Source of the DNA: a bacterium
GTDB taxonomy: Bacteria; Babelota; Babeliae; Babelales; Vermiphilaceae
Length of the DNA stretch: 34,832 bases
Assembly: GCA_021818945.1 (NCBI GenBank)
Contig: JAKASV010000010.1
Coordinates: 1-34,832 of the forward strand
Reading direction: 5' to 3'
A model generated the notes under the pieces. It searched no databases. It saw only the letters and a list, made by a program, of their open reading frames with translations, and was not told the origin of the DNA. Positions 3,286-32,738 of the stretch are shown piece by piece; the first letter of the stretch is position 1, and the number at the start of each line of letters is the position of its first letter. A program made the translations under genes and the position numbers.

Positions 3286-4017
3286 TTATATCATAGCAAG
3301 ATCAGCCTCTTGAATCCATCCATATCCAGTTTTATCTATAATCACTTTCAACCAGCCATCATGCCTCTGATACACGCGTACCAACTCTAGCATGGTAGCT
3401 TGCGTTACTAAAGCATAATCCTGCCCAGGTCCAGCATACACGGAAATTGAATTTTTAGAAACTAACCCAAGAGGATATTTTTGATCGCGATACTTTACAA
3501 AAAGGCAAAGCCCCATTAACAGCGTCATGATACTTAATAGAACCAAACTAACATAACCAGATGTACGAATTAATCGAGGTAATAACACACATAAAACAAG
3601 CCAACAGACAAGAAAGAGAATCTGCAATAACATTATAGAAAATATAGAATTAATACGGCTCATCCATGTATGTATAGTATCGATAATCGATTTTTTACTC
3701 GATGTCCCTAAAGCCTCGTAGGCACTGGTTATATAAGCCTCTAAAGTTGCCCAGTCGCGCAATGAAGCATCTTTTTGTGCTCGGCGCCACTGCAGAACAG
3801 CTTGGGGATAATCGCCCAAACGGTAATAACAATTACCCATATTATACAGAACTGCATGACCTTTAGGCTCAATAGATTGATACTGTTTTAATGCATCATC
3901 GATGTTACCTGCAATATAGGCTGCATTAGCTTTTAAAAATATTTCTTGAACATTGCCTGCATGTATATCGAGCAGATACACCATTGCAAGAGATATTACA
4001 ATAATCAGTTTTTTCAT
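3286..4017 (-). CDS. batE: BatE-like TPR and SH3-domain protein
   Basis: A 243-residue exported membrane protein. A signal peptide spans residues 1-20. TPR-type helices at about 25-110 include YNMGNCYYRLGDYPQAVLQWRRA. Two membrane segments lie at about 128-150 and 155-173. A bacterial SH3-like domain at about 180-243 carries the typical VYAGPGQDY and DGWLKV turns. The combination TPR, membrane helices, SH3 is the BatE architecture of Bat operons. Its start overlaps the batD stop by four bases, so translation is coupled. The 3' neighbour is the M23 peptidase; together they suggest a function at the cell wall. Family knowledge gives BatE a role in envelope maintenance, but no reaction is established. 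Confidence 0.8.
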   Translation of the reverse strand: MKKLIIVISLAMVYLLDIHAGNVQEIFLKANAAYIAGNIDDALKQYQSIEPKGHAVLYNMGNCYYRLGDYPQAVLQWRRAQKDASLRDWATLEAYITSAYEALGTSSKKSIIDTIHTWMSRINSIFSIMLLQILFLVCWLVLCVLLPRLIRTSGYVSLVLLSIMTLLMGLCLFVKYRDQKYPLGLVSKNSISVYAGPGQDYALVTQATMLELVRVYQRHDGWLKVIIDKTGYGWIQEADLAMI

Positions 4018-5759
4018 AGAACTTTTTCCAATTTTTTAACCCAATCGGCTGCTTCATTAAATAAAGAGTCCTTTTCAGACCTATCTCTCGACAATGCAAA
4101 AAAAGCTTTTTCATGCATACGCATATAAAAATCTTGCCATGAGCGCATTTCAGACTCTGAAAATCCTCTCGTTGACAATGCTTGTTCTATAACTTCTTGA
4201 CTAACTATTGAAGGAGCACATTTTAAACGATCTGCAAATAACTCTATAAAAATTATGTGTACCCGTTGCGATGCCCCTTCACGAGCAGCAAGCTGAATTT
4301 TTTTACGCGCATGTTTGAATGCAAACTGTTGCTTAAAATAATCTGCGCGATGCCTTATAAAAAGACGCATGATATCTAAAGCTATTTTTAACAAGGGCAA
4401 CAATGCAAGAACAAAAAATAACCACCATGGCATGGGTGTACGTTGATGACTAGGCCTTAACGCTCCCCACGTATTGAGTGGCAATACATCATCGGTTTTA
4501 TCAGGTTCCTTGCTCAGGATTGGACTTGTTGTTTGTTCTGAAGATAGTGTCTTTTTTGTCGCAGGGTTTAGTTTGATTTTTACAGGGCAGGCTACTGTTT
4601 TCAACATCGCATATTGACGTGTTGATACATCAAAATAGGTAAATGTTTGAGCAGGTATTTCCCATGAACCCTGCTCAAGACCTTGCACGATATATTCAAA
4701 ACATTTCACCGGTAATCCATGGACACCAAGAGTATCGCGAACATACTGTTTAGAATCATACCATTTTAAAGCTGAAGGCATACCCTGAAGTTGAAGTGTT
4801 TTTATTTGTGTAAGATCACCATCACCTTCTAGTTCAAGCAGGAGCACCATTCCTTCCCCCTGCTGTGCAACTGATGGATTAATTTTTGAATCGAAACTTT
4901 TAAATATGCCAGTAGCATCAACATGAGCTTTAGTTTCTGGCAATGATTCAACTTTTATTGTGGCAGCATTTGAATAGGTACGTTTGCGTTCAGCACGAAA
5001 TTTAAAAAAAGGAGAAAAAAATGATAAACTATCATTCGCTTCTTGTTCTACTTGATAATTTGCACCAGAGGCTGGAATTACTATAGTGCCTGCAGCTTTG
5101 GGAAACAGTTGCCATGTCCACGTTATAGATTCATAGTGCACGCCATTGATTGTACGTGATCCTGTTAAGGGTCCTGTCTTTGCACCCATAGTACATTCAG
5201 GAATTTTCGGTTCTTCTAGAGCCTCCAGTTTGACCGTACCTTTTTTTCCCAAAAAAGTTAATGAACAGGTAAAACGCTCACCAACAAAAACTTGATTTTT
5301 ATCAACTGAAAGTTCAATAAAAGCATCATTGGTACCTGCACGCACTTTTTTTGCATAAGCCTGATCTATGACCTGTTTATTACCTACCATAATGCGGACT
5401 GCTTTCGATTGTGATTGAGTACCGTCAATAGAAAGAACTGCAGGACCAATGACAAAGCTGCCTGGACTATCAACACGAACCTTGTATGTATAGGTTGTCG
5501 AAGCATCGCCATTGATAGAATAGACTCGTATTCCTGCGGTTTGAACCTGAAATTTATCCAGACCCGCTATTTTTGGTTTTTGTGAAGCATCACGCCCACT
5601 AGCCGTCACTTCCACTAAAAAAGGAACCCCAACTCCAGCCATTTGCAGTGGTGCTCCTTCAAGAGATTTTACCTTTAATTCTACCGGCATAGCAGAAATA
5701 CATGCGCCCATGCCAACGACCAATGCTATATATCGGTACTTACCAACAATGCTGACCAT
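4014..5759 (-). CDS. batD: BatD (BAM domain) protein
   Basis: A large exported protein of the BatD/oxygen-tolerance family. A signal peptide (about residues 1-25 from this start) is followed by a long beta-rich periplasmic region, which opens with the VDKNQVFVGERF block typical of BatD. A single membrane helix follows at about 440-460 (WWLFFVLALLPLLKIALDI), and then a cytoplasmic helical tail. I choose ATG 5759 because the signal peptide then begins at the N-terminus and GGTGGGG precedes it. A GTG at 5789 would add 10 residues. The start overlaps the end of batC by 20 bases and the stop overlaps batE by four. It presumably works with the VWA proteins BatA and BatB in one envelope complex. Confidence 0.82.
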   Translation of the reverse strand: MVSIVGKYRYIALVVGMGACISAMPVELKVKSLEGAPLQMAGVGVPFLVEVTASGRDASQKPKIAGLDKFQVQTAGIRVYSINGDASTTYTYKVRVDSPGSFVIGPAVLSIDGTQSQSKAVRIMVGNKQVIDQAYAKKVRAGTNDAFIELSVDKNQVFVGERFTCSLTFLGKKGTVKLEALEEPKIPECTMGAKTGPLTGSRTINGVHYESITWTWQLFPKAAGTIVIPASGANYQVEQEANDSLSFFSPFFKFRAERKRTYSNAATIKVESLPETKAHVDATGIFKSFDSKINPSVAQQGEGMVLLLELEGDGDLTQIKTLQLQGMPSALKWYDSKQYVRDTLGVHGLPVKCFEYIVQGLEQGSWEIPAQTFTYFDVSTRQYAMLKTVACPVKIKLNPATKKTLSSEQTTSPILSKEPDKTDDVLPLNTWGALRPSHQRTPMPWWLFFVLALLPLLKIALDIMRLFIRHRADYFKQQFAFKHARKKIQLAAREGASQRVHIIFIELFADRLKCAPSIVSQEVIEQALSTRGFSESEMRSWQDFYMRMHEKAFFALSRDRSEKDSLFNEAADWVKKLEKVL

Positions 5760-7002
5760 CTTGCCCCACCAATTGTTTGCCAATGACACCCTTAATTAAC
5801 CCTTTGGAACGCTGCGCATCTTTGCGTTCCTGTTCTTCCATAACCCACATCAGACGTTTATCAATCTTTTTACCTTCTGGTTCTTGTTTGCCTATTTGAG
5901 CTTGCTTTTCTCCTTGCTTTAATTGCATTGCTTGCGTTGGCAACTGTGTTTGAGTATCGTCAGGTTGTGGACGTCGATGGCCGGATTTTTTGTCTTGTTG
6001 CATAGGAGATTGATTATGAGCATCGAATGTTTGCTCGCCAGTAGCATCCTGGTGCTGATTACCTTCGGTATCGGCTGGACTTCGCTCAGGCTTTTGTTGT
6101 TGCCCTTGATCACCCTGCCCTTGTTCTTGGCTATCATTACTAGTCTTATCAGTTGGTTTATGATCAGGCTGTTTGCCGCTTGTGTCTTGTTCCTTTTGCT
6201 CTCTTCCATTGCCGCCTGAATTTTTTTGTTGTTGTTTTTCTTTTTTGTCCTGAGCACCGGATTGCTGTTGGTCCTTCGAATCAGTTCCATTGGATCCTTG
6301 CTGTTGTTTATCCTGCTGTTGTTGACCTTGCTGGTTACGTTGATCTTGTCCTTGTGAATCTTTTTGCTTGTCCTGCTTGGAATCTTGCTTTTGTTCGTTC
6401 TTTTGATCTTTATCTTGATTACCCTGATTACCATTCTGCTGTTGTTTTTTATCATCTTGCGTGTCTTTATTTTGCTGACCTTGTTGTTTATTTTGCTCCT
6501 GTTTTTGCTGATCTTGTTTTTCTTGTTCATGCTTCTCATTCTGTTTTTGTTCTTGCTCTTTTTTCTGTTGCTCAAGAAGCATTTTTGCTTTTTGCAAGTT
6601 ATGTTTGACCCGCTCATCAGAAGGCTCTAATTTTAAAGCCTGTTCATAGGCATCCACCGCATCTTTGTACTCTTTAAGTGCAACATGGGCATTACCAAGA
6701 TTAAAGTATGCTTGTTTTTGCAACCCTGATTCAATAATCTTTGATTTGGTTGCACGCTTACAATAATCCTGTGCTTGTTTATAATTGCCAGATTTATAGG
6801 AAACTACACCCGCATCGTACAGTAATGAAGGATCATCAGGATGATCAATTAAGCTCTCATTTAAGCGTCTAAGAGCACTTGCCCAATCTTGGCGTTGTGT
6901 ATCATAGACGGCACGATCATGAGCAAACCATTCCCCATAACAATAAGAACAACCAAAACTAAGTAATAGAAAAACTATACTACGCATAGACCCCCAACTC
7001 AT
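5740..7002 (-). CDS. batC: BatC-like TPR protein with long Gln/Lys-rich tract
   Basis: Exported protein of 420 residues. A signal peptide at the N-terminus is followed by TPR repeats at about 25-140 (LYDAGVVSYKSGNYKQAQDY and YFNLGNAHVALKEYKDAVDA). Residues about 145-370 are low complexity, dominated by Q, K, D, E, G and N, and must be disordered. A short ordered-looking tail follows (LMWVMEEQERKDAQRSKG). The TPR part and its place between batB and batD identify BatC; the tract is far longer than a simple linker. ATG 7002 directly abuts the batB stop (TAAATG). ATG 6987, five codons later, has GGGGG before it and places the signal peptide better, so either may be used. Reading frames opposite this tract are open only because of the biased composition. 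Confidence 0.78.
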   Translation of the reverse strand: MSWGSMRSIVFLLLSFGCSYCYGEWFAHDRAVYDTQRQDWASALRRLNESLIDHPDDPSLLYDAGVVSYKSGNYKQAQDYCKRATKSKIIESGLQKQAYFNLGNAHVALKEYKDAVDAYEQALKLEPSDERVKHNLQKAKMLLEQQKKEQEQKQNEKHEQEKQDQQKQEQNKQQGQQNKDTQDDKKQQQNGNQGNQDKDQKNEQKQDSKQDKQKDSQGQDQRNQQGQQQQDKQQQGSNGTDSKDQQQSGAQDKKEKQQQKNSGGNGREQKEQDTSGKQPDHKPTDKTSNDSQEQGQGDQGQQQKPERSPADTEGNQHQDATGEQTFDAHNQSPMQQDKKSGHRRPQPDDTQTQLPTQAMQLKQGEKQAQIGKQEPEGKKIDKRLMWVMEEQERKDAQRSKGLIKGVIGKQLVGQDGQHCW

Positions 7003-8010
7003 TTATATTATCCATTCAAGCAATAAACATATCAAACTGACGACCAAAAAATAATGATATTGATCTTCAAGCAATGCAATTTTTTTATCTTCAATCTTTT
7101 CTTTCTCAAAAGCGGTAACCGCTCGGACTAATGAACGAAGATCAGAATCATCTTTGGTTAACGATACATAGATACTACCAGAATCTTGCGCAACCGATCT
7201 CAATATCCCCTCATTCAAATGAGTAATCACAACATTTCCTTTGTCGTCAAGCTGATGCCCAATTTGTGTACCATACGGATCATACAAAGGAATCGGAGCT
7301 CCTTCTGCTGTGCCAACTCCAACTGTAAAAATATGCATCCCCTGAGATATTGCCTGTTTTTTGAGCGTTGCAAGATTACTCGAAAAGTCTTCCCCATCAG
7401 TAAAAATAACTAATAATTTGTTTTTTTTATCTTTTATTGCCCCAAAAGCATCCATTGCTTTGGCAATTGCTTGATCAATGGCTGTTGTTCCAGATGACAC
7501 AGTCTGTGCATCAATAGCATCCAAAAACATCATGAATGCCTCATAATCGGTCGTTAAAGGACATTGAATGATGCTTGAGCCAGAAAACAAAATAAGTCCA
7601 ACTCGTTCACACGAAAGCAGAGGCAACAACTTTTTTATTTTGTTTTTTGCACAGATCAATCGATTTGGAGTACAATCTGTTGCCAACATGCTTTTAGAAA
7701 TATCAAGCGCTATGAACAAATCACGCGCCTCTTGTTCGACTGTTTCCTCTTTTTTGTTCCACATAGGTCTTAGTAACGCCAAAAACAACCCTATGCTCGC
7801 AACTAACAATAAGATTATTTTAAAGACTGTTTTAGGGGTATTCACATAACGCAAAAAAGGGCGTGCCTGCTCAGTTCTTGCAAGTTGTTTAACTACCCGA
7901 TACGTACGCATGAATCTATACAGGAGTAATCCCATTAATCCTATAACTAGAGCTAAGGCAATCCAATTATCAGTAGCACCCCAAGTGATGCCTGAAATGT
8001 CAATATTCAT
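7003..8010 (-). CDS. batB: BatB, VWA-domain membrane protein
   Basis: A 335-residue protein with membrane helices at about 16-34, 61-81 and the extreme C-terminus (about 318-335), and a von Willebrand A domain between. The metal-ion-dependent adhesion site is complete: DISKS with Asp103, the SGTT threonine near 175 and FTDGED at 203-208. Metal-dependent protein binding is therefore expected. The VWA domain should face the periplasm, held by flanking helices. The start overlaps the batA stop by four bases and the stop abuts batC. The paired VWA genes followed by TPR and BatD genes match the canonical Bat order. Confidence 0.88.
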   Translation of the reverse strand: MNIDISGITWGATDNWIALALVIGLMGLLLYRFMRTYRVVKQLARTEQARPFLRYVNTPKTVFKIILLLVASIGLFLALLRPMWNKKEETVEQEARDLFIALDISKSMLATDCTPNRLICAKNKIKKLLPLLSCERVGLILFSGSSIIQCPLTTDYEAFMMFLDAIDAQTVSSGTTAIDQAIAKAMDAFGAIKDKKNKLLVIFTDGEDFSSNLATLKKQAISQGMHIFTVGVGTAEGAPIPLYDPYGTQIGHQLDDKGNVVITHLNEGILRSVAQDSGSIYVSLTKDDSDLRSLVRAVTAFEKEKIEDKKIALLEDQYHYFLVVSLICLLLEWII

Positions 8011-8996
8011 ATGCTAAACCAGATAGTAGAAGTGAGCAAAATCTCTAAAATCAACAATCCAAAAAGAATCCAAACAAATGGTATAAAAACATCATAATAC
8101 TTGTTGTAGAGCGGTGTTTCATATTCAGTTTTTTCTAATGTGTCTATGGTATCATAGACTGTACGCATGTCTTGAGCATTGCGAGCCAAAAAGAACTGGC
8201 CACCTGTTTGGTGGGCAATAGTTTCAAGCAGCTTGCTATTTATTTTGGGCAACATCGCTAACCCATAGAGCGGATGCTGAATGAGCCTTTCTTGGTCACT
8301 CCCGATGCCAATCGTGTAGATTTTTATGCCCAGCTGTTTTGCAATTTCGATGGCTATCGAAGGATCAATATCTTCTGGAGAAGGTTCGCCATCGGTTAAC
8401 ACAATCATAACATTGCTTTTTACTTTGCTATTCTTTAAACGGTTGGCAGCACTTATAATAGCACGGGCAAGTACGGTCCCTTCAGGGTTGACAATGCCAA
8501 TCTTGGCCTCTTGAACGATCGCTGTAAGCATTTTTTTATCTGTAGTTAACGGACAGCGCGGCAAAGCATCCTTACCAAAAAGTACTAATCCCATAGCATC
8601 ATTGGTACGCGCTTTAATAAATCTGATAGCTTCGTCTTGTGCAACATCAAACCGAGACCGTTCATCATCAGCATAATCCTGAAATTGCATACTACCTGAA
8701 ACATCAAGCACAATCATAATATTAATACCCTTAACAATTACCTTGCTAGAACTATCAACAAGCTGTGGCTTGCCAATCAAAAGAACAAGCAATGATAACA
8801 TAACAAATCTGAGTATAGATAAAATTTTACGAAAAGGATGGCGACTTGACCAACCTTGAGTTTCTAATACATCTGCAAGCGGATATACATAGATCGGCGT
8901 TTTTGTAATCCATATCCTCAGAGCGAGAGCAATTAACAATGCAAGCAGCCCAAGACCAAGAAACAAGGGTTGAGCAAAGCGCACAAAATAATCCAT
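8007..8996 (-). CDS. batA: BatA, VWA-domain membrane protein
   Basis: A 329-residue protein with N-terminal membrane helices (about 10-30 and 58-76), a VWA domain at about 90-290 and a C-terminal helix at about 305-325. The MIDAS is intact: DVSGS with Asp98, a conserved Thr in EGTVLARA, and LTDGE at 201-205. It is the first VWA gene of the Bat operon and shares its overall plan with BatB. The ATG at 8996 is preceded by GAGAGG, and the TAG stop of the acyltransferase gene overlaps that ribosome site, so the genes are translationally linked. Confidence 0.88.
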   Translation of the reverse strand: MDYFVRFAQPLFLGLGLLALLIALALRIWITKTPIYVYPLADVLETQGWSSRHPFRKILSILRFVMLSLLVLLIGKPQLVDSSSKVIVKGINIMIVLDVSGSMQFQDYADDERSRFDVAQDEAIRFIKARTNDAMGLVLFGKDALPRCPLTTDKKMLTAIVQEAKIGIVNPEGTVLARAIISAANRLKNSKVKSNVMIVLTDGEPSPEDIDPSIAIEIAKQLGIKIYTIGIGSDQERLIQHPLYGLAMLPKINSKLLETIAHQTGGQFFLARNAQDMRTVYDTIDTLEKTEYETPLYNKYYDVFIPFVWILFGLLILEILLTSTIWFSI

Positions 8997-16055: not shown

Positions 16056-16082
16056 CAAAGCCCCCGACATGCAGGGGCTTTG
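16056..16082 (-). terminator. Terminator of the surface-protein operon
   Basis: The minus strand reads CAAAGCCCC, a nine-base loop and GGGGCTTTG, followed by CTTTTTG. The 9-bp perfect stem plus T-run is a standard intrinsic terminator. It lies 25 bases past the stop of the coiled-coil protein gene. Confidence 0.85.
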
Positions 16083-16107
16083 TGTCAAAATTTTGAGCCG
16101 TAGTTTA

Positions 16108-16875
16108 TTATTGACACTTCAAGAATATTGCTTTGAGCCACTGAATAATTGAAAGATCTGTAGCATTAATTTGGTCACAGGTCATTAAATTATCAATAGA
16201 TGTACAATCAATAGTTTCGTTTGGAGTACCAATGACGGTACAGCAAGCAGAAATATTGGATTCGATAGTATCAATCTTGGAATCAATAATATTGATTTCG
16301 CTGTTCATCAAAAATACCTTGCTCTGAATCGTTTGAGCATGTTCTTCGAGAACGTCTATTTGACTTGAAATATAGCAAAGAGTACCAAGGACATCTGGTG
16401 GCAATAATTCATTCTCACATTCTGGGCAGCCAATACGCTGCAAGATCTCTGTCAATGCTTTTGCAACTACAGCGGCAACTGCAGCATAATCCTGAGGAAT
16501 TTCTGGATGTTTTGCATTCTCACAAGAAATTTCTTCAAGAAGTTTTGCCCATGTTCCTTCATAGTCAACTTCACCTATTACTGCAGTCAGTTTGCACAAA
16601 ATGCATTTGATCTGCTCTAAAAAAGTTCCGTCTACACAAGGGGACACCGATAATGACCCTTCTTCATTACATATTCCATCTGGTCGTGGCGCTCTTGTTT
16701 GAACAAGTTTTTTCAAATCAGACAATGCATTCATAATCTGCTGTTTAGCCATATCAATATTATCTGGTGCAGATAAATCAAACAATCCTCTTTCAGCGGC
16801 TTGTGCAAACCAGCAATTGGTCATCACCAGTGCGCAACAGGAAAAACCTAGAGCTACTTTTATTATTTTTGTCAT
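16108..16875 (-). CDS. Exported coiled-coil, cysteine-pair protein; function unknown
   Basis: A 255-residue protein. A signal peptide (about 1-27, ending near FAQAAERG) leads into a helical protein with several cysteine pairs, including CILC at about residue 88 and CPEC at about 150. A clear heptad region occupies about 170-210 (ISSQIDVLEEHAQTIQSKV then INIIDSKIDTIESN), so trimer or dimer formation is likely. The ATG at 16875 has GAGG eight bases before it; an in-frame ATG at 16890 overlaps that ribosome site and is rejected. It is last in the three-gene operon starting at 23136 and is followed by a terminator. I recognise no family. Cysteine pairs shared with both upstream products suggest a joint disulfide-bonded structure. 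Confidence 0.8.
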   Translation of the reverse strand: MTKIIKVALGFSCCALVMTNCWFAQAAERGLFDLSAPDNIDMAKQQIMNALSDLKKLVQTRAPRPDGICNEEGSLSVSPCVDGTFLEQIKCILCKLTAVIGEVDYEGTWAKLLEEISCENAKHPEIPQDYAAVAAVVAKALTEILQRIGCPECENELLPPDVLGTLCYISSQIDVLEEHAQTIQSKVFLMNSEINIIDSKIDTIESNISACCTVIGTPNETIDCTSIDNLMTCDQINATDLSIIQWLKAIFLKCQ

Positions 16876-16930
16876 AGTATCGATCCTCATTCATTACTTA
16901 TAGGCAACACCATAATTAGCATTCAATTTA

Positions 16931-18784
16931 TTAGAAATAAATAGCCGCACCAACATGGAACTCAGTTTCTTTCAATGCAAAACGTCCTGCAAGAGAATAA
17001 TATGCTCCACCGAAGTATTCACAGCAACCGATGCGGTGGAAGAACTCGCCTCTTATCTTATGTAAACGAGTGTTGGTACCTTCTTCTAAAATTGTATCAT
17101 CAAGCTTATGAGTAAATCCGAGGAAATCTTTGGCAGTTGATTTACAGAAACAGACTTTATCACTTTGTTTGGCGTATAATTCATAGCCAAATACCAATCC
17201 ACATTCATAGCATTTTGGATGGAATAAAGTAACATCAAGGTTGCCCCAGAAATAACCCCATTGAACACGTGCTGGGACTGACCTGCCAACAGGGATATTC
17301 TTTATTGTTGCTCCTGCAAAGGCCGGTGCTCTCATTTCTGTATGATCAAAAACATGAGTAAAGGTTGCCATACCCCGTAATGCAAACCAGCTGCGATGTA
17401 CGCCACCTTCTAGGCCACCACGAAATTCAAAATGTCCATTATTGCCCGTAGGTTGCCAGTAGATACGTTTAGCATCACAAGTCTTTTTGCCTGTAGGCAA
17501 TTTAGAACCGACCAACATATCAAGGTACCAGCAAGGCATATGATAACCTGCATACCATTCGGTATAGAGATCTCCAGCTCCTACTACACAATCAGAGGTA
17601 CAAAAATCTACACCATTTTTTTTGAAGAAACTGAGCGCTGTTGCCTCTGTTAAATTCATGCGATTTAATACATAATCAATTGCATTTTGGACCGCATTGG
17701 CATCCTCAATGAGAATCCCATCGCCAGCTGCACCAGTTGAATTAGGAACCAAGAACAATTGCCTTTGTTGAGTACGATCAAGTGCTAATCCAGATGCATA
17801 ATCTACAGTTTGACTAAATGCAAGACGGTCACCATTAACTCCAATGTTTGTGTTATAGTTAGTCCCCTGTGCATTCAATACCCAAGTAGCGACTTCCACT
17901 GGATCTGCCGGATTTGCAGGGCCTACATTGCGACCTAAGTTATTGCTCTCTAAAACACCCGTAGGCGTACCAATTGTTATTGCATTAGCAATATTGCCAT
18001 TATCTGCACCCAGTACATACATTGGAGCTATAGCTGCCTGAATTGGTGCTTGACCACGTTCAGTAAATAGTGTGATCGGTATACCTGCAACTGTCGTATC
18101 GCTCGTCCCATCACCATAGGCAACCATTGGCGAACCATCGAGAAATTGCAAGGCACTTAAGAAATCTAATCGATATCCGTTGACATTATTCATTTTTTGA
18201 CCGGAGCCATCAGCATTTGAATTCGTAAATTCTTGACGTCGGACAATTACATTGCCGAAATCTTCCTCAATACTTTCACTTTGGCAACTTCGCCGTTGCT
18301 GCACCTCAACACGTGAAATAGGAAGACTTGCACGCCATCCTATAGCCCAACATGAATCACAGATGTCTTTTTGGGCATGCATGCCAATGAACACACCAGA
18401 CTCATTATATTCAAAACTTGGCGTTATCTTTGCAAAGCTCAAAGCTGGGTACCCGCTTGGAACTGTCAACAGGCCATTCGCAAACGCTTCTTCTCCCAAA
18501 AAGCAGGATTTTCCAAAAAACAATTTGCTTAAATCGGTAGTTTTTGTCGTTGGTCCATCCCAGTTACAATCATCACAAATAAATGCCTTGCATGCTGTTC
18601 GACAATAACCTGCTGCCCACGCATCAACCTGCCATGGATTTTCAGGATCACATCCTTCAAGAGGATAATGAATGACTCCTCTCTGTAGGCTCAACTGTGA
18701 TACGAGCCCACCAGTTACCGCCAAGAGTCCTTGACAACCGCACATACTTATCGCGGTCACAAGGATGAGTATTTTTTTGTTCAT
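16931..18784 (-). CDS. Probable outer-membrane beta-barrel protein, cysteine-rich
   Basis: A 617-residue exported protein of unknown family. A signal peptide lies at about 1-22. The N-terminal 120 residues contain paired cysteines (CRTACKAFICDDC and CDSCW). The C-terminal half alternates polar and aromatic residues in short strands and ends in HVGAAIYF; a final Phe is the signature recognised by BamA on outer-membrane barrels, and a bamA gene lies at 28043-30961. More pairs occur near the end (CYEC, CFC, CC). The ATG at 18784 is preceded by AAAGGAG. The gene sits 86 bases after the 1421-residue protein and 55 bases before the coiled-coil protein. A surface porin or an anchor for the upstream protein are both possible. 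Confidence 0.8.
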   Translation of the reverse strand: MNKKILILVTAISMCGCQGLLAVTGGLVSQLSLQRGVIHYPLEGCDPENPWQVDAWAAGYCRTACKAFICDDCNWDGPTTKTTDLSKLFFGKSCFLGEEAFANGLLTVPSGYPALSFAKITPSFEYNESGVFIGMHAQKDICDSCWAIGWRASLPISRVEVQQRRSCQSESIEEDFGNVIVRRQEFTNSNADGSGQKMNNVNGYRLDFLSALQFLDGSPMVAYGDGTSDTTVAGIPITLFTERGQAPIQAAIAPMYVLGADNGNIANAITIGTPTGVLESNNLGRNVGPANPADPVEVATWVLNAQGTNYNTNIGVNGDRLAFSQTVDYASGLALDRTQQRQLFLVPNSTGAAGDGILIEDANAVQNAIDYVLNRMNLTEATALSFFKKNGVDFCTSDCVVGAGDLYTEWYAGYHMPCWYLDMLVGSKLPTGKKTCDAKRIYWQPTGNNGHFEFRGGLEGGVHRSWFALRGMATFTHVFDHTEMRAPAFAGATIKNIPVGRSVPARVQWGYFWGNLDVTLFHPKCYECGLVFGYELYAKQSDKVCFCKSTAKDFLGFTHKLDDTILEEGTNTRLHKIRGEFFHRIGCCEYFGGAYYSLAGRFALKETEFHVGAAIYF

Positions 18785-18832
18785 CTTTCTCCTTTGGTCT
18801 TGGAGTTAAATAGTATTAACCACAGACACTGG

Positions 18833-18862
18833 GAGCAGGAGGCACACTCATGCCCCCCGCTC
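18833..18862 (-). promoter_or_regulatory. Intercistronic stem-loop after the 1421-residue protein gene
   Basis: On the minus strand GAGCGGGGGGCA pairs with TGCCTCCTGCTC across a six-base loop, giving 12 pairs, two of them G-U. It begins eight bases after the stop codon. No T-run follows, so it is more likely a 3'-end stabiliser or partial attenuator that lowers expression of the downstream genes than a full terminator. Confidence 0.6.
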
Positions 18863-18870
18863 ATGATACT

Positions 18871-21800
18871 TTATGCTAAAATGCTCATATTTTGGATAGC
18901 ACGTGGTTGATTAGGATTGGTTGATGGAACAAGCCGTATAGCTGCTGCACCAATATCGATAGAATGAGATTGATCTGTTGTCGTTCCTGCTGAACCAATG
19001 ATTGCGATTTGTACCAATCGTTGGATGAACCCTCGATCAACATACCCAGCCATCATCTCATTACGTATAAATGGACCAACATCACAACGAGAATTATACT
19101 GACTTGCAGAACCTAGGATATCAGCATTTCTCCAATCATTGAATACAACTGAAGCTGAACCGCTCAATTGTCTATCAAGTGGCAACCTAAACAATGGATC
19201 CGAGGAAAGAATACCAACCGTAGATGTATTTAAATTCTGGATATTCATGCCAGTTGGAGTTGTAGTAGATGTTAAGAAAAGGTTTCCGCCACCACGTATA
19301 GCTGAACGCGAAAGGTTGGCAGTACGACCATCTGTATCACCACTAAAGTCAATGGTAAAGGTTGGGGTACTACTACCACCGCCTATTGCCATTGCCGAGC
19401 CTACGAGTGAGAATTGCTCGCTAGATCTATTACCATCCCAAATTATATTATGACTGAATACACCATTAAGAACATTGATCGATATTGATTGAACATTATA
19501 GGTCTGACCTATTAACCATTCATTTGGTACCGAACCATAGAGTTTATAGGCTATTGCAGATCCAAGTCCTACGAATGCTCCTTGACCTATATAAAACTCA
19601 GCGTCATTACCATTGATCTGTAATGAGAAATTTATTGATGCGCCTGTGCCCTGATCTGATGTATTACCAACTTGGAATGCTCCACCAATGAGGCTGCATT
19701 GACCTATTGACCAATGAGCACTGTCTTCTAAGATGAAATTTAGATTCGTATTGATGCTACAGTTTGGCATTGTTTCAACGCCTACAAATGCTCCCTCAGG
19801 GATAATAAAGTATGAACAACCGGTAAATCTAACTATACCTGTAGAACCTATAAATTTGGCACGTAATGCATCAAGTGCAGTTAAATCTGTTGGCTTAGTT
19901 GTAGGCAAAAGAGTTTTCGATACAGGCTCACTGAAAATACCCGCATTTTCGGAGAATTTAAGTTCGACAGTACCAAGAATTATTTTTGCTCCCGGCTCAA
20001 GTACAAGTTTGACGTTACCACCAATTACAACAACCCCATTAACCGTGAATGAAGTTAAGTCAAGAACACCTGAACTCTTTACCAATATTGTTCTGCAGCA
20101 ATCAGATTCAATAAGCAAGCGATTTGAAGATGCCCAGTTTGGACCTTGAACAATATGACATACATTGTTAATGACAATATCTTCATTAAGAAGTACACGG
20201 CTATCACCATTAGCAATAATTGTGATACCATTATTACCCATAACTACCGAGGCTGCAAGCGAGTCAACATTTGTATGAGCAGATCCTAATCCAACTTTGC
20301 CGTCATTTTCAAGAACAATCACAGCCGTAGGGGCAAAGCCTTGTTGGCAAGCATCGGGGAAGATGAGTTCACGTACATTGCCACCATTGCCAACCTTGAT
20401 ATGGGCTGGATCACCAATACGTGAACCTCTAATGAACAATTGATCAACTTCACCTAGAACCGTTGGTAAACCGGTCACATTTGCTACTGCTGCTGCGTTT
20501 GCTGGGCAAGCCGTACAAGTACATATAAATGGCAAGAAGTTAGGATCTTTACAAATGGTATTCCAGTTGAGTACATAATCGGAAAGGACAGACCCCGCAG
20601 GAATAATTACTGGAGTTTTACTCAAATCAAGTTTCCAATCAGCCTCACCTAGTCCATAGCCAAAACGAACAATCGGTCCTGGTAAATCGATTACACCATT
20701 GCCGCTCTTAGTTACCATGACACCCATGTTAACGCCACAGGTATTGATTGCCCTTATGGTTCCATTATTGTCTACGAAGATACCACCTTGTCCGCAGATA
20801 TTGCTTGCTTGTGGATAATTGATTATTCCCCCGCGAGAATTAAATGAAAAATAATTTCCATCGATGGTCAGCGTAGGACAGGAGAAATGCTCAGGAACTT
20901 GTCCTGTAGGCGAACCAACCGAAGTATTACTTGCATGGCCTAAGAAAATTGTATTGATCGAGAATTGACCAGTAATATCGGCAGGCACACCTTCAATGAT
21001 GGTGCTATTATTTGGCGCAACATTAAGAACGAGTTCATGGATATTTGAACATGTGCAACTTTGATCAGCCAGCTGCATAATATCAAGATGAGAATCCTGA
21101 TTGACAACATTGCAACAATCACATGTAGTAGACCCTGGATAGGTGCCTAAAATCATTTGGCGACCAGTCCCATTATCTTTGGCATACCCATTATAGAAAA
21201 ATGTAAATTTACTGAGATTGTCGCATGGTTTAGCATTGACAAGGTCATCATCTGATTTTTCTTTATCAGCTTCTATAGCTTGATGCATATGAGCAAAATG
21301 ATGTGCACGATGACAAGGATATGTATACATCTGTTTGCAATCAATACATTTTGCTTTTTCAGCTGATAGCTCTTGTTCCTCACATGGCAGACAGCATTCA
21401 AGTGCATTAGGAACTAACAAATCAACACCCGTTAAAGCCAAGCTCGTATGAACCATCAACGTTGAATCGGAGAAAATTACTCTAGGACGTGCTTTGCCAG
21501 TCAACTTATTAATTTCTCCACCCACATAGGTTGGTTCTGAACGAAGGTCATCATTATCACAAACTTTATGATTTTGATCGGTGTGTACTAAGAAAGTTTT
21601 GTATAAGATGGCATTGTTATTAAAGAAGAAATAGCCTGAATTGTAGGCTCTATAGGCACCATCATGTTTTGCAAAAGTACGTGCAGGGAAGTTTTTGCTG
21701 CCTGTTCCGTCTATGAGAACCGTAGCTCCTGTTGGTGTACTGAACAGCGATAAAATTTCGAGCTTTGTAGGATGTGCAATTGGATCTGTTCCTGCACCGG

Positions 21801-23136
21801 CTACAGTCAAACAACCTTCGACATCAAGCAACATATTACCGGCACCCGGGGTACGCTTTGATGGGCTCACGGTAAATGGAAATTCAGATGTCAGATCATT
21901 TTCAATTTTACCTTCGCAGTCAACACCCGACAAGAAGACTACTGCTGATTGAGCTGCCAAATCTATGCAGGCTGGTAGAGCCGCCTTATCATTATAGCCA
22001 TCTACAATCAATGCCGATGGATTTCTCTTTTTAAAGATTCTTTCAAAAGGAACATTACTGAGACTTTCATGGCTCAAGCCGGCACAATTTTCGCAAAGAC
22101 ATCCGTCAATGACAGAATCAATGCCACATGGCATATGCTCTGACCCTTTTAGGCATTGATCTAACGAAAGTCCTACATAGGCTAGAAAGGTAAGTGTTCC
22201 AAGCGACAATTTACCATTGCAACCTAATACAAAACCATAGGTCTTGCCCAAATAGGTTTTTGGATGCCAAATTTGATGATGAGCTAACGTTTTATTAGCG
22301 TTCAAAACCAGAAGCCTAGAGGAGGCATCAGGATTACTGTTAATGATTCCAAAAATAGCCTGACATCCAGCTGGACAGGTTTTTTCGATATCAGCATAGA
22401 CAAGGTCATATGATTCTGCTCGATGGTTCTTTATGGTGCGACCGCTAATGAGAACCGAAGCTTTGTTATCAATAGCCAAGGCCATACGACCTTTATCAAG
22501 GTTTGTTGGATTAAATTGGATAATACCAACACCCTCGTCACTCAAGGCCTTGTCTGACGCATATCCTAAGGCAGCACGATAGCCAAGATTTATAAAAATA
22601 TTATCCTCAAGGTGTGCTGAAGCACGATTAAATTCTAGAATCGTGCCATCCATAATGACATAGAGCTTAACACTTCCACCATTAAGACCATTTGGTTCTA
22701 ATGTGATACTTTTTCTACCATTGGTTCTAAAAATAACCTTATGGCCGCCTCGTACGGCAATGAATAATGGATGACCGCCATCTTCAGCACTAGCACCAAC
22801 AAACTTAAGATCTTGAGTTACATGGAAAGTTATATTAGCATTTTTAGGCTCCAAAAACAAGGTATCAACTTGCTTGGATCTACTGATTATTGTAGGATCG
22901 GTCTTTTGAGTTAAATATACATTTATTGGGCGCTTCGATGCAGTAATACTAACATAATGATGATCGTGCATTGAGGTTAAAATTGAATTACTTTGAATTT
23001 CAAGTACTGGATCTGAACCATCAAGGTTTGGCGTATGTGAATCGTGCCAAACTACTTTTGCTTGCACTGCAACACCGCTATACAAAAGTGCAAGTGAGCC
23101 TAAGAGCAGCTTTTTTGTGCTTATATTTTTTCGCAT
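18871..23136 (-). CDS. Giant exported surface protein, probable beta-solenoid; function unknown
   Basis: A 1421-residue protein. The signal peptide ends near residue 26 (LLYSGVAVQA-KVVWHD). The rest is rich in G, N, T, V and I with many short strand-turn units (for example VLLNEDIVINN, GVVVIGGNVKLVLEPG, GGIFVDNNGTIRAIN), the texture of a parallel beta-helix as in adhesins and polymorphic outer-membrane proteins. Cysteine clusters interrupt it: CLCENC at about 340-350, a CxxC/His-rich block at about 580-630 (CIDCKQMYTYPCHRAHHFAHMH), and CTCTACP at about 865-875. There is no C-terminal barrel and no sorting motif; it ends IQNMSILA. It is first in a three-gene operon with its own promoter and leader ORF, and the next gene encodes a likely barrel. 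An attachment or shell role is inferred, not shown. Confidence 0.85.
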   Translation of the reverse strand: MRKNISTKKLLLGSLALLYSGVAVQAKVVWHDSHTPNLDGSDPVLEIQSNSILTSMHDHHYVSITASKRPINVYLTQKTDPTIISRSKQVDTLFLEPKNANITFHVTQDLKFVGASAEDGGHPLFIAVRGGHKVIFRTNGRKSITLEPNGLNGGSVKLYVIMDGTILEFNRASAHLEDNIFINLGYRAALGYASDKALSDEGVGIIQFNPTNLDKGRMALAIDNKASVLISGRTIKNHRAESYDLVYADIEKTCPAGCQAIFGIINSNPDASSRLLVLNANKTLAHHQIWHPKTYLGKTYGFVLGCNGKLSLGTLTFLAYVGLSLDQCLKGSEHMPCGIDSVIDGCLCENCAGLSHESLSNVPFERIFKKRNPSALIVDGYNDKAALPACIDLAAQSAVVFLSGVDCEGKIENDLTSEFPFTVSPSKRTPGAGNMLLDVEGCLTVAGAGTDPIAHPTKLEILSLFSTPTGATVLIDGTGSKNFPARTFAKHDGAYRAYNSGYFFFNNNAILYKTFLVHTDQNHKVCDNDDLRSEPTYVGGEINKLTGKARPRVIFSDSTLMVHTSLALTGVDLLVPNALECCLPCEEQELSAEKAKCIDCKQMYTYPCHRAHHFAHMHQAIEADKEKSDDDLVNAKPCDNLSKFTFFYNGYAKDNGTGRQMILGTYPGSTTCDCCNVVNQDSHLDIMQLADQSCTCSNIHELVLNVAPNNSTIIEGVPADITGQFSINTIFLGHASNTSVGSPTGQVPEHFSCPTLTIDGNYFSFNSRGGIINYPQASNICGQGGIFVDNNGTIRAINTCGVNMGVMVTKSGNGVIDLPGPIVRFGYGLGEADWKLDLSKTPVIIPAGSVLSDYVLNWNTICKDPNFLPFICTCTACPANAAAVANVTGLPTVLGEVDQLFIRGSRIGDPAHIKVGNGGNVRELIFPDACQQGFAPTAVIVLENDGKVGLGSAHTNVDSLAASVVMGNNGITIIANGDSRVLLNEDIVINNVCHIVQGPNWASSNRLLIESDCCRTILVKSSGVLDLTSFTVNGVVVIGGNVKLVLEPGAKIILGTVELKFSENAGIFSEPVSKTLLPTTKPTDLTALDALRAKFIGSTGIVRFTGCSYFIIPEGAFVGVETMPNCSINTNLNFILEDSAHWSIGQCSLIGGAFQVGNTSDQGTGASINFSLQINGNDAEFYIGQGAFVGLGSAIAYKLYGSVPNEWLIGQTYNVQSISINVLNGVFSHNIIWDGNRSSEQFSLVGSAMAIGGGSSTPTFTIDFSGDTDGRTANLSRSAIRGGGNLFLTSTTTPTGMNIQNLNTSTVGILSSDPLFRLPLDRQLSGSASVVFNDWRNADILGSASQYNSRCDVGPFIRNEMMAGYVDRGFIQRLVQIAIIGSAGTTTDQSHSIDIGAAAIRLVPSTNPNQPRAIQNMSILA

Positions 23137-23140
23137 AAGC

Positions 23141-23218
23141 TCATCCTTTTTTTAAAAATTTATCACTATACTCTTTCTTTGCATTTGGACGTAAATACTT
23201 ATGACATATCTCTCTCAT
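23141..23218 (-). CDS. Possible 25-residue leader peptide of the surface operon
   Basis: A short basic frame (MREICHKYLRPN... ending FLKKG) begins at ATG 23218, eight bases after a near-perfect ribosome site, AAAGGAGG (complement of 23227-23234). Its TGA stop (23141-23143) falls inside AAGGATGAG, the ribosome site of the 1421-residue protein, four bases before that ATG. This arrangement is what translational coupling or a regulatory leader would require. The peptide is not recognised. A minimal ATG-TAA at 23218-23223 overlaps the start. Coding is likely from the signals but unproven. Confidence 0.5.
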   Translation of the reverse strand: MREICHKYLRPNAKKEYSDKFLKKG

Positions 23219-23290
23219 TACATACGCCTCCTTTGCGCTTGCCAACCAGTTCAACAATACTCAACGCCCAAAAATTAGGGCCTTGGTTTA

Positions 23291-23319
23291 CTTCTAGTTT
23301 TTTTATGCAAGAATGTCAA
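23291..23319 (-). promoter_or_regulatory. Putative promoter of the surface-protein operon
   Basis: On the minus strand a perfect TTGACA (complement of 23314-23319) is followed after 17 bases by TAGAAG (complement of 23291-23296, 4 of 6 matches). This gives a leader of roughly 150 bases before the 1421-residue protein, containing the small ORF. Confidence 0.5.
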
Positions 23320-31122: not shown

Positions 31123-31197
31123 GGCCCCATAGTCTAAGGGTTAGGACACTGCCCTCTCACGGCAGAGATAGGGGTTCGAATCCCCTTGGGGCTGCCA
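31123..31197 (+). tRNA. tRNA-Glu (anticodon CUC)
   Basis: A 75-base tRNA including CCA (31195-31197). The anticodon stem-loop CTGCC-CTCTCAC-GGCAG gives CTC. The T-arm AGGGG-TTCGAAT-CCCCT is perfect. The acceptor GGCCCCA pairs with TGGGGCT, so the first pair is G1-U72, a wobble where G-C is usual; the discriminator is G, as expected for Glu. The 3' half is shared with the 3' end of the recombinase gene on the opposite strand, marking it as an integration site. Confidence 0.94.
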
Positions 31198-32643
31198 TAG
31201 TTGATCATCAGCACAATTTATGATTAAATCAAAGGGCTTTTGCACGATGTAGACGATCTTTTCGTCATCGATCGATAAGTTCGATAGCACCAGCCTGATT
31301 AATTGCCGTTTTTCCTCAACTTCAGAACCAATAAATAGTTCATATGCCCGGTTAATCAGCTCTAGTACGTATTTTGCAGTAATAAAATAGTTATCTTCAG
31401 CCTCCTCAAGTTGAGCAACTTTACAGTCAAGATCATCTCGCTGGCACCGGAGCGACTGGTAATATTTGTCATATTCGCTCTCTGTAATACACCCGCGCAG
31501 TTTATCCATGTACAAATTGTCCATCATCTTGATGACAGTTTTATGCTGTTTAGTCAGCTCATCAAACTGCTTAGTCTGAAAATCCATCTTGTTCTGATGA
31601 ACCTCACTTAATGTCTCTACAATCTGCTTCAAGATCTCGGGCGGCACCTGCATGCGCTTAAATACTTGGCCGATCTGCTCTGTGATCTCCTCTTCTCGCA
31701 ACCATTTTGCCCCATGCTTGCCGTTATACTGGGTGCAATGGTAATAGACATGCCCCTTATGCTTTTCAGGCGTTATAGCAAGGCCACACTGCGCACAGCG
31801 CAAAAGACCCCTGTAGATGTACGGCTGTCCGGCATACTTAAAGGGCTTTTTGTTAAAACCATCTTTTATCTGTTGAACCTGGTCAAAGAGAAGCTTCGTA
31901 ATGAGTGCAGGATACTGATGCGCATACTCTTTATTCTTCCAAACCATCACTCCATAATAAAATGGGTTCTTGAGTACCTTATCAAGAAAACCCTTTGCCC
32001 AATCCACATGACAGTCTTCTTTGAGCTTGTTACAAAGTAGATCCATAGAGTATGACCCTGTGGCATACAGCTCAAATGCCTTTTGCACTATACAGGCCAA
32101 CCCATCATCAACAACAATATCTGTCTGATTATTAGGTAGGGTGATATTTTTATATCCGTAAGGAGCTTTACCTGGCCATTCTCCTTTGCGTAGTTTCTGC
32201 TCCGTAGCACGTTTGACGTTGTCGCTTATAGCATCTGAATAGTATTTTGCTAATCCAAGACTTATATTAAACTGGAACTTTTCAGCTGCTGATATTCGGC
32301 TATTGATGATCTGCCCATCAGATATAAAATGCAGTTCGACTTCGTCGTTTAGGGCCTTTTCATAAAGCACTGAAATCCGCTTATCAAAGACATTACGTGA
32401 TAGTCGGTCAACTTTATCGCAACAAACAGCGACCTTTTCAGTTTGAGCAAGGACAAAATCGATGATGCGGTCAAATTCACCCCGTTCAGTCGTATAAGCA
32501 CTCTCATCAAAGCTGAACTCTTTGATTATCTCAAGGCCTTTATTACGACAGTATTTTTCAAGTCGATTTAATTGCGCAGGTAGAGAATTACCAGCTTCTT
32601 TTTGCTCTTCGGTGCTTACTCGGGCTATCAAGATTGCTTTCAT
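31141..32643 (-). CDS. Large serine recombinase (element integrase)
   Basis: A 500-residue site-specific recombinase of the resolvase/invertase superfamily, large serine integrase type. The catalytic domain begins MKAILIARVSTEEQ (Ser10), with the DKVDRLSRN block near 90-98. A recombinase domain follows (GKAPYGYKN then the FELYATGSYSMDLLCNKL region), then a zinc ribbon (RCAQCGL and YYHCTQYNGKH) and a coiled-coil at about 340-440. It should integrate or excise the surrounding element. ATG 32643 is used; an upstream ATG adds 17 atypical residues. The last 18 residues (WQPQGDSNPYLCRERAVS) and the stop are the antisense of tRNA-Glu, so the gene's end was created or completed by the integration site. 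It is divergent from the toxin-antitoxin pair. Confidence 0.92.
   Translation of the reverse strand: MKAILIARVSTEEQKEAGNSLPAQLNRLEKYCRNKGLEIIKEFSFDESAYTTERGEFDRIIDFVLAQTEKVAVCCDKVDRLSRNVFDKRISVLYEKALNDEVELHFISDGQIINSRISAAEKFQFNISLGLAKYYSDAISDNVKRATEQKLRKGEWPGKAPYGYKNITLPNNQTDIVVDDGLACIVQKAFELYATGSYSMDLLCNKLKEDCHVDWAKGFLDKVLKNPFYYGVMVWKNKEYAHQYPALITKLLFDQVQQIKDGFNKKPFKYAGQPYIYRGLLRCAQCGLAITPEKHKGHVYYHCTQYNGKHGAKWLREEEITEQIGQVFKRMQVPPEILKQIVETLSEVHQNKMDFQTKQFDELTKQHKTVIKMMDNLYMDKLRGCITESEYDKYYQSLRCQRDDLDCKVAQLEEAEDNYFITAKYVLELINRAYELFIGSEVEEKRQLIRLVLSNLSIDDEKIVYIVQKPFDLIINCADDQLWQPQGDSNPYLCRERAVS
31160..31197. other. Putative left attachment site in the tRNA-Glu 3' half
   Basis: The element to the right begins directly at the 3' end of the tRNA gene, with an intact tRNA kept and the recombinase adjacent, the classic layout of an att site at a tRNA 3' half. 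The crossover cannot be placed exactly because no second copy of this sequence (GGGGTTCGAATCCCC and flanks) is present in the window. Confidence 0.4.
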
Positions 32644-32738
32644 GGTGTTTTTCTCAGTTAAAAATTGAAATGTAGCTATAAAAAATTGTACCAAATATTA
32701 ACAAAGTCAGAAGTATTTTTTTAATGTCCACAAGCTTG

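Follow-up and report, generated by a model that had tools for sequence, protein, structure and literature searches.

What do three consecutive exported proteins of no recognised family do together in a member of the Dependentiae? Members of this phylum live inside protists, are widespread and have seldom been cultured, and very little is known of their surface. The proteins are encoded in a window of 34,832 nucleotides (the whole stretch of DNA that was analysed) from a 1.25-Mb draft genome, 95% complete. The original prediction was an undescribed cysteine-paired surface system, in which a beta-helix, an outer-membrane barrel and a coiled coil would form a shell or a host-attachment apparatus. 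The phylum sample comprised 101 genomes, all from one order, and 86 genomes were compared as relatives.

Organization of the locus

On the minus strand, genes 1, 2 and 3 (ORFs of 1421, 617 and 255 amino acids) follow one another in the same orientation, separated by 86 and about 55 nt. The features of the locus are as follows.

18871..23136, minus strand: gene 1, a 1421-aa exported protein predicted to be a beta-solenoid (the "passenger"), from the ORF, AF2, Foldseek and homologues in 45 of 86 relatives
23059-23136, minus strand: gene 1 signal peptide, about residues 1-26, judged by eye
16931..18784, minus strand: gene 2, a 617-aa predicted outer-membrane beta-barrel with C-terminal GAAIYF, from AF2, Foldseek and homologues in 45 of 86 relatives
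16108..16875, minus strand: gene 3, a 255-aa exported Cys-rich coiled-coil protein (260 aa from an upstream ATG), from the ORF and its motifs
16056..16082, minus strand: terminator-like hairpin (intrinsic), 11-bp stem with a T tail

The N-termini of all three products resemble Sec signal peptides when judged by eye, which together with the ORFs confirms that three consecutive exported proteins are encoded. No Pfam or NCBIfam family scored above its cut-off for genes 1, 2 or 3, in agreement with the first reading of them as unrecognised. PDB profile searches, also those started from alignments and from barrel paralogues, gave no reliable homology match. The common terminator claimed for the operon was recovered as the hairpin at 16082-16056, and the interval first marked, 16056-23319, begins at this terminator and ends just upstream of gene 1. 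The claimed shared promoter was not borne out: a scan for sigma-70-like sites listed none on the minus strand upstream of gene 1, and the site totals equalled those of shuffled sequence. A promoter common to the three genes is assumed here from the layout.

A Pot-type ABC transporter is encoded upstream of the three genes, and MetG and TopA downstream. Upstream of the pot genes lies the second Omp85 gene of the genome (28043-30961; 972 aa, POTRA domains and barrel), adjoined by a large serine recombinase with a zinc-ribbon domain (31141-32694) that possibly belongs to a mobile element. At 4014-8996 there is an aerotolerance-type (Bat) cluster encoding BatD, a TPR protein and two VWA proteins, which adjoins genes for an M23 peptidase, an SH3/TPR protein and a signal peptidase.

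Genes 1 and 2 are kept together across the order

Homologues of gene 1 and of gene 2 were each found in 45 of the 86 relatives, and the two genes were adjacent, in a fixed order, in nearly all mapped loci. Most mapped pairs were located between the pot genes and MetG, a gap that in pair-less relatives was empty or held other exported proteins. A search with the C-terminal module of gene 1 (A6, delimited below) matched 43 of 86 genomes, and 43 of these 43 carried a strong gene-2-type barrel; the module was present in 0 of 41 barrel-less genomes (Fisher p=3e-22). Fifty-three of 54 module copies lay no more than 2.4 kb from a barrel, with a median gap of 143 nt. Four barrels were without a module, three of them at contig ends. 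Solenoid and barrel also co-diverge, their distances being correlated after MetG and PotD distances were removed (partial r=0.58, permutation p=0.0005, 18 loci). When 84,980 species' genomes were scanned for relatives of gene 2, only records labelled Dependentiae, Babeliales, TM6 or bacterial MAG were returned, which bears out the assignment to Dependentiae in the first reading.

Judged from gene content and gene order, genes 1 and 2 are a true pair whose linkage is conserved across the order. Conserved linkage in relatives had been set in advance as a check, and the pair came through it; an undescribed exported solenoid and an outer-membrane barrel in one operon are supported. The pair is missing from 41 of 86 genomes and is thus not essential to the lifestyle.

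The Omp85-pot neighbourhood was seen again in many Dependentiae, whether the pair was present or absent. We considered the Omp85 gene as a pair-linked component and rejected it, since Omp85 occurs in 86/86 genomes and, in many that lack the pair, still stands beside the pot genes. Two other loci are of note. Genome G013 (L127:6227-8911) has kept the barrel without a solenoid, and the adjoining ORFs, made up of NVTGATNLTG-type repeats, may encode a passenger in its place. In the pair-less genome G007 (L155:1592-8699), the pot-proximal region encodes three tandem Cys-rich proteins of about 750 aa with 34-41 Cys, together with a related 403-aa ORF; the one tandem protein that was read resembles a NosD-type beta-helix.

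Predicted structure of the gene 1 product

AF2 modelled residues 27-1226 of gene 1 with short strands nearly throughout (pLDDT 77, pTM 0.71). The top Foldseek matches of this model were weak (best E 0.03) and were mostly beta-helical autotransporter passengers and other beta-helices. Model and matches agree with the first reading of the product as a beta-helix, and we describe it as a predicted beta-solenoid. Four parts of the protein are referred to below.

22039..22146, minus strand: insertion 1, residues 331-366, with four Cys and low confidence (pLDDT<50)
21217..21396, minus strand: insertion 2, residues 581-640, Cys/His-rich, low confidence (pLDDT<50 over most of it)
19918..20226, minus strand: piece before the module, about residues 971-1073, a separate protein of about 150 aa in several esterase-type operons
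18874..19881, minus strand: C-terminal barrel-associated module, about residues 1086-1421, from the A6 alignment and search and from esterase fusions

Insertion 1 is kept by few relatives (mean identity 0.14). Insertion 2 reads CCxxC...CxxC...CHRAHH and has an occupancy of 19% among homologues; its CxxC/His pattern makes it a possible metal site. In distant families the only part of gene 1 retained is residues ~895-1300, an indication that the C-terminal third is the essential part.

Predicted structure of the gene 2 product

The AF2 model of gene 2 (pLDDT 80, pTM 0.74) resembled FapF (E=7e-9, TMt 0.66) and a COG4313 channel (TMt 0.76-0.78; 0.78 for 4rl8) in Foldseek, and EspP-like autotransporter barrels were also among the nearest. 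The protein had been said to end like an outer-membrane barrel, and the model bears this out. Gene 2 is accordingly predicted to be a barrel nearest to those of FapF, COG4313 and autotransporters, with an exact fold left uncertain by the 12-14 strands assigned by DSSP. Two regions of the barrel stand out.

17594..18169, minus strand: large barrel insertion, residues 206-397 (about 190 aa), from DSSP and conservation
17279..17329, minus strand: predicted loop L5, residues 486-502, motif AxFxGATVKNIGP, from conservation and motif counts

The insertion is the least conserved part of the barrel. Strand parity in the model would place it on the extracellular side, together with loops L4 and L5, which are conserved. 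L5 is the most conserved region of the protein (conservation 0.63 vs 0.42-0.52 in the strand blocks), and its motif was present in 30 of 44 pair barrels vs 0 of 22 other ORFs, mostly barrel paralogues without the module. Top conservation and absence from the barrel paralogues examined make L5 a candidate docking site.

Six more distant relatives of the barrel are encoded in the same genome (L208-L213; 419-701 aa, 9-32 Cys each). They form part of a large Dependentiae OMP superfamily for which there is no Pfam model.

A sister operon carries an esterase

Ten genomes carry a paralogous operon that usually encodes a protein of about 150 residues, a gene-2-type barrel and then an esterase fused to the module. 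The fusion proteins are 650-872 residues long and consist of a PF00756 domain followed by the same C-terminal module as in gene 1. PF00756 was detected in all 10 esterase-type operons (E 5e-17 to 2e-28), with GxSxG intact. In five of the 10 (L129_11, L130_8, L218_1, L219_0, L222_3) the small protein matches the gene 1 stretch just before the module, at HMM ~923-1025, which adjoins the module at HMM ~1032-1354 in the esterase fusions. The barrel gene and the esterase therefore seem to have divided what was one unit.

Trees built separately for barrel and module both set 34 solenoid-type pairs apart from 10 esterase-type pairs (support 0.997 and 0.998). The cargo has been swapped while module and barrel were kept together in two cognate clades, so that it is the module, not the cargo, that goes with the barrel. 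The esterase-type operons and the two-clade trees are the strongest evidence that the module may interact with the barrel.

We weighed these data against an ordinary porin and an unrelated secreted protein that are co-transcribed by chance. Such a reading could draw on the large OMP superfamily to which the barrel belongs, since several of the paralogues in these genomes fall outside the pair type. Against it stand the almost complete co-occurrence of the two genes, their co-divergence and the matching clades of barrel and module in two different gene orders, and only one unpaired copy, that of G013, was found; we regard chance as most improbable. A general C-terminal sorting-domain system of type IX kind was also rejected, as there are 1-3 module copies per genome and 53/54 stand beside a barrel.

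Gene 3 is a separable coiled-coil protein

The family of gene 3 has a C-terminal VIxWLKxI signature and often an RAPR motif (RAPRP in gene 3) around coiled-coil repeats, which agrees with the coiled coil read at first. The number of repeats varies and CC pairs are frequent, up to 27 in a homologue. Of the 86 genomes, 20 have a member of this family, and almost all of these belong to the source family. At least five of the 20 lack the pair, and in genomes of other families that do carry the pair no member is present. The linkage proposed for the trio thus held for genes 1 and 2 and not for gene 3. We rejected gene 3 as a core third member, and its distribution suggests a lineage-specific, separable accessory. 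In one genome the NCCVTLNSKID repeats of a 777-aa homologue (L093:9433-11763), which hold its 27 CC pairs, are almost identical; this suggests fast change of repeat number.

Cysteines of the three proteins

By position, the mature products contain 39 (gene 1), 19 (gene 2) and 13 (gene 3) cysteines. All three had been said to carry many CxxC or clustered cysteines. CxxC motifs exceeded shuffled sequence in gene 1 (5 vs 1.0, p=0.002) and gene 2 (3 vs 0.66, p=0.02), and no CxxC enrichment over shuffles was found in gene 3 (p=0.24). Nor are such numbers rare among exported proteins, as had been supposed: the six distant paralogues of the barrel that this genome encodes are Cys-rich too, which makes this a trait of the lineage rather than of the operon.

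A cysteine-linked protein shell, as in the chlamydial outer-membrane complex (MOMP, OmcB, Pmps), would account for the high counts, for the CC pairs of the gene 3 family and for the Cys content of the solenoids, which averages 1.9% within the source family vs 0.85% elsewhere. The two cases are alike in that Cys-rich surface proteins, some of them beta-helical, occur in an intracellular bacterium. They differ in that the cysteines are not conserved here, an outcome that had been named in advance as refuting the prediction. Most of the 39 in gene 1 were found in only 1-5 of 35 homologues, i.e. they are private to single lineages; the commoner ones were C993 (25/35), C877 (18/35) and C672, C675 and C328 (12-14 of 35). 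Eleven of the 39 lie in the two flexible, mostly lineage-specific insertions, about a third if a short loop is added. The number of Cys in solenoid homologues varies between 4 and more than 60, a content of about 0.3 to 3.2%, and solenoid and barrel contents were not correlated (Spearman 0.10, p=0.58, 34 pairs), nor were they within the source family. Pfam gave no match of the pair to the chlamydial MOMP, Pmp or Omc families. Profile searches of the source genome, a 95% complete draft, for DsbA and VKOR were empty; a divergent enzyme could escape such searches, and as chlamydial DsbA shares only 15% identity with its E. coli counterpart (PMC6752827), the empty result is modest evidence. The predicted cysteine-paired shell was abandoned on column conservation, the uncorrelated contents and the DsbA and VKOR searches, and we consider it very doubtful.

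Comparison with known secretion systems

Pfam, NCBIfam and PDB profile searches matched the pair by sequence to none of the known secretion barrels or passengers. Type Va autotransporters (EspP, Ag43, EstA) resemble the pair in the predicted beta-helical fold of the passenger, to which the structural matches are weak, in a 12-strand-like barrel, for which 12-14 strands are predicted here, and in a conserved shared part of the passenger at its barrel-side end. In contrast to them, passenger and barrel are separate ORFs here in all mapped loci, the barrel has no PF03797 (Autotransporter) match and the passenger has its own C-terminal module.

In two-partner secretion (type Vb, FHA/FhaC) a large beta-rich passenger and its cognate barrel are likewise encoded by two adjacent genes, but the shared module is C-terminal here, not N-terminal. 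Gene 2 and 21 homologues gave no match to Omp85, ShlB or POTRA, while the two Omp85 proteins of the genome were found elsewhere, and gene 1 and 14 homologues gave no match to an N-terminal TPS domain. With no TPS domain and a barrel that is not Omp85, membership of type Vb was rejected.

The Fap exporter (FapF/FapC) and the COG4313 channels, which are marked by a 12-stranded plugged barrel, are the closest solved barrels by fold (TMt 0.66-0.78), and in them too the barrel is separate from a polypeptide cargo. They differ from gene 2 in giving no sequence match, in the insertion of about 190 aa in the gene 2 barrel and in its lack of a coiled coil on the barrel polypeptide. The cargo here is a solenoid or an esterase, unlike the amyloid of Fap, and the Fap operon partners (C39 peptidase, amyloid repeats) were not found at the locus, where the neighbours are the Pot ABC transporter, MetG and TopA. 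The pair falls outside type Va, type Vb and the Fap system as tested, yet by analogy would work most like them.

In the same phylum, Babela massiliensis has seven secreted proteins with a Cys-rich N-terminus and a beta-barrel in a single polypeptide (PMC4378268). This family and the barrel paralogues seen here possibly belong to one OMP superfamily. A literature search found no paper that links Dependentiae with autotransporters.

Proposed mechanism

On balance we think it probable that genes 1 and 2 are a dedicated, Dependentiae-specific "barrel plus passenger" pair that resembles a split autotransporter. We infer its export and translocation, surface location and role towards the host as follows. 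Gene 1 would pass the inner membrane via Sec, and its C-terminal beta-helical module would dock to the gene 2 barrel. The barrel would then take gene 1 across the outer membrane, retain it at the surface, or both. About 1000 solenoid residues would point outward and would probably serve in attachment to the host or as a shield. In the sister operon the same module-barrel unit would work with an esterase as cargo, and gene 3 would be a lineage-specific coiled-coil accessory outside the core.

A module beside a barrel in 53 of 54 copies does not tell movement of the cargo by the barrel from binding of it. The barrel may be a surface anchor or receptor only, and the solenoid or esterase may be exported otherwise, e.g. 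by type II secretion, and then bound through its C-terminal module. The pairing evidence fits this equally, type II secretion is the sole secretion system reported for B. massiliensis (PMC4378268), and a binding site is suggested by loops L4 and L5, which are conserved and predicted to be extracellular. The closest likeness of the gene 2 barrel is nevertheless to barrels that export polypeptides; FapF has been described as an autotransporter-like barrel whose exported cargo is another polypeptide, and its authors stress its likeness to type Va barrels (PMC5557850). Pure anchoring fits nearly as well as a split autotransporter, and we hold it to be rather unlikely. The pair may represent a phylum-specific secretion subtype, in which a non-Omp85 autotransporter-like barrel exports a separate passenger via a C-terminal beta-helical module, in two cognate lineages, one with a giant adhesin-like solenoid and the other with an esterase at the cell surface; this broader proposal is tentative, quite possible and short of probable.

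LPS biosynthesis genes were reported absent from the isolate C. destructans (PMC6561590). The pair offers a concrete, testable surface system in Dependentiae, and the sister operon, with its swappable cargo, narrows which part would contact the barrel. Were the barrel to export its partner, the pair would be a split autotransporter beyond the present type V classes.
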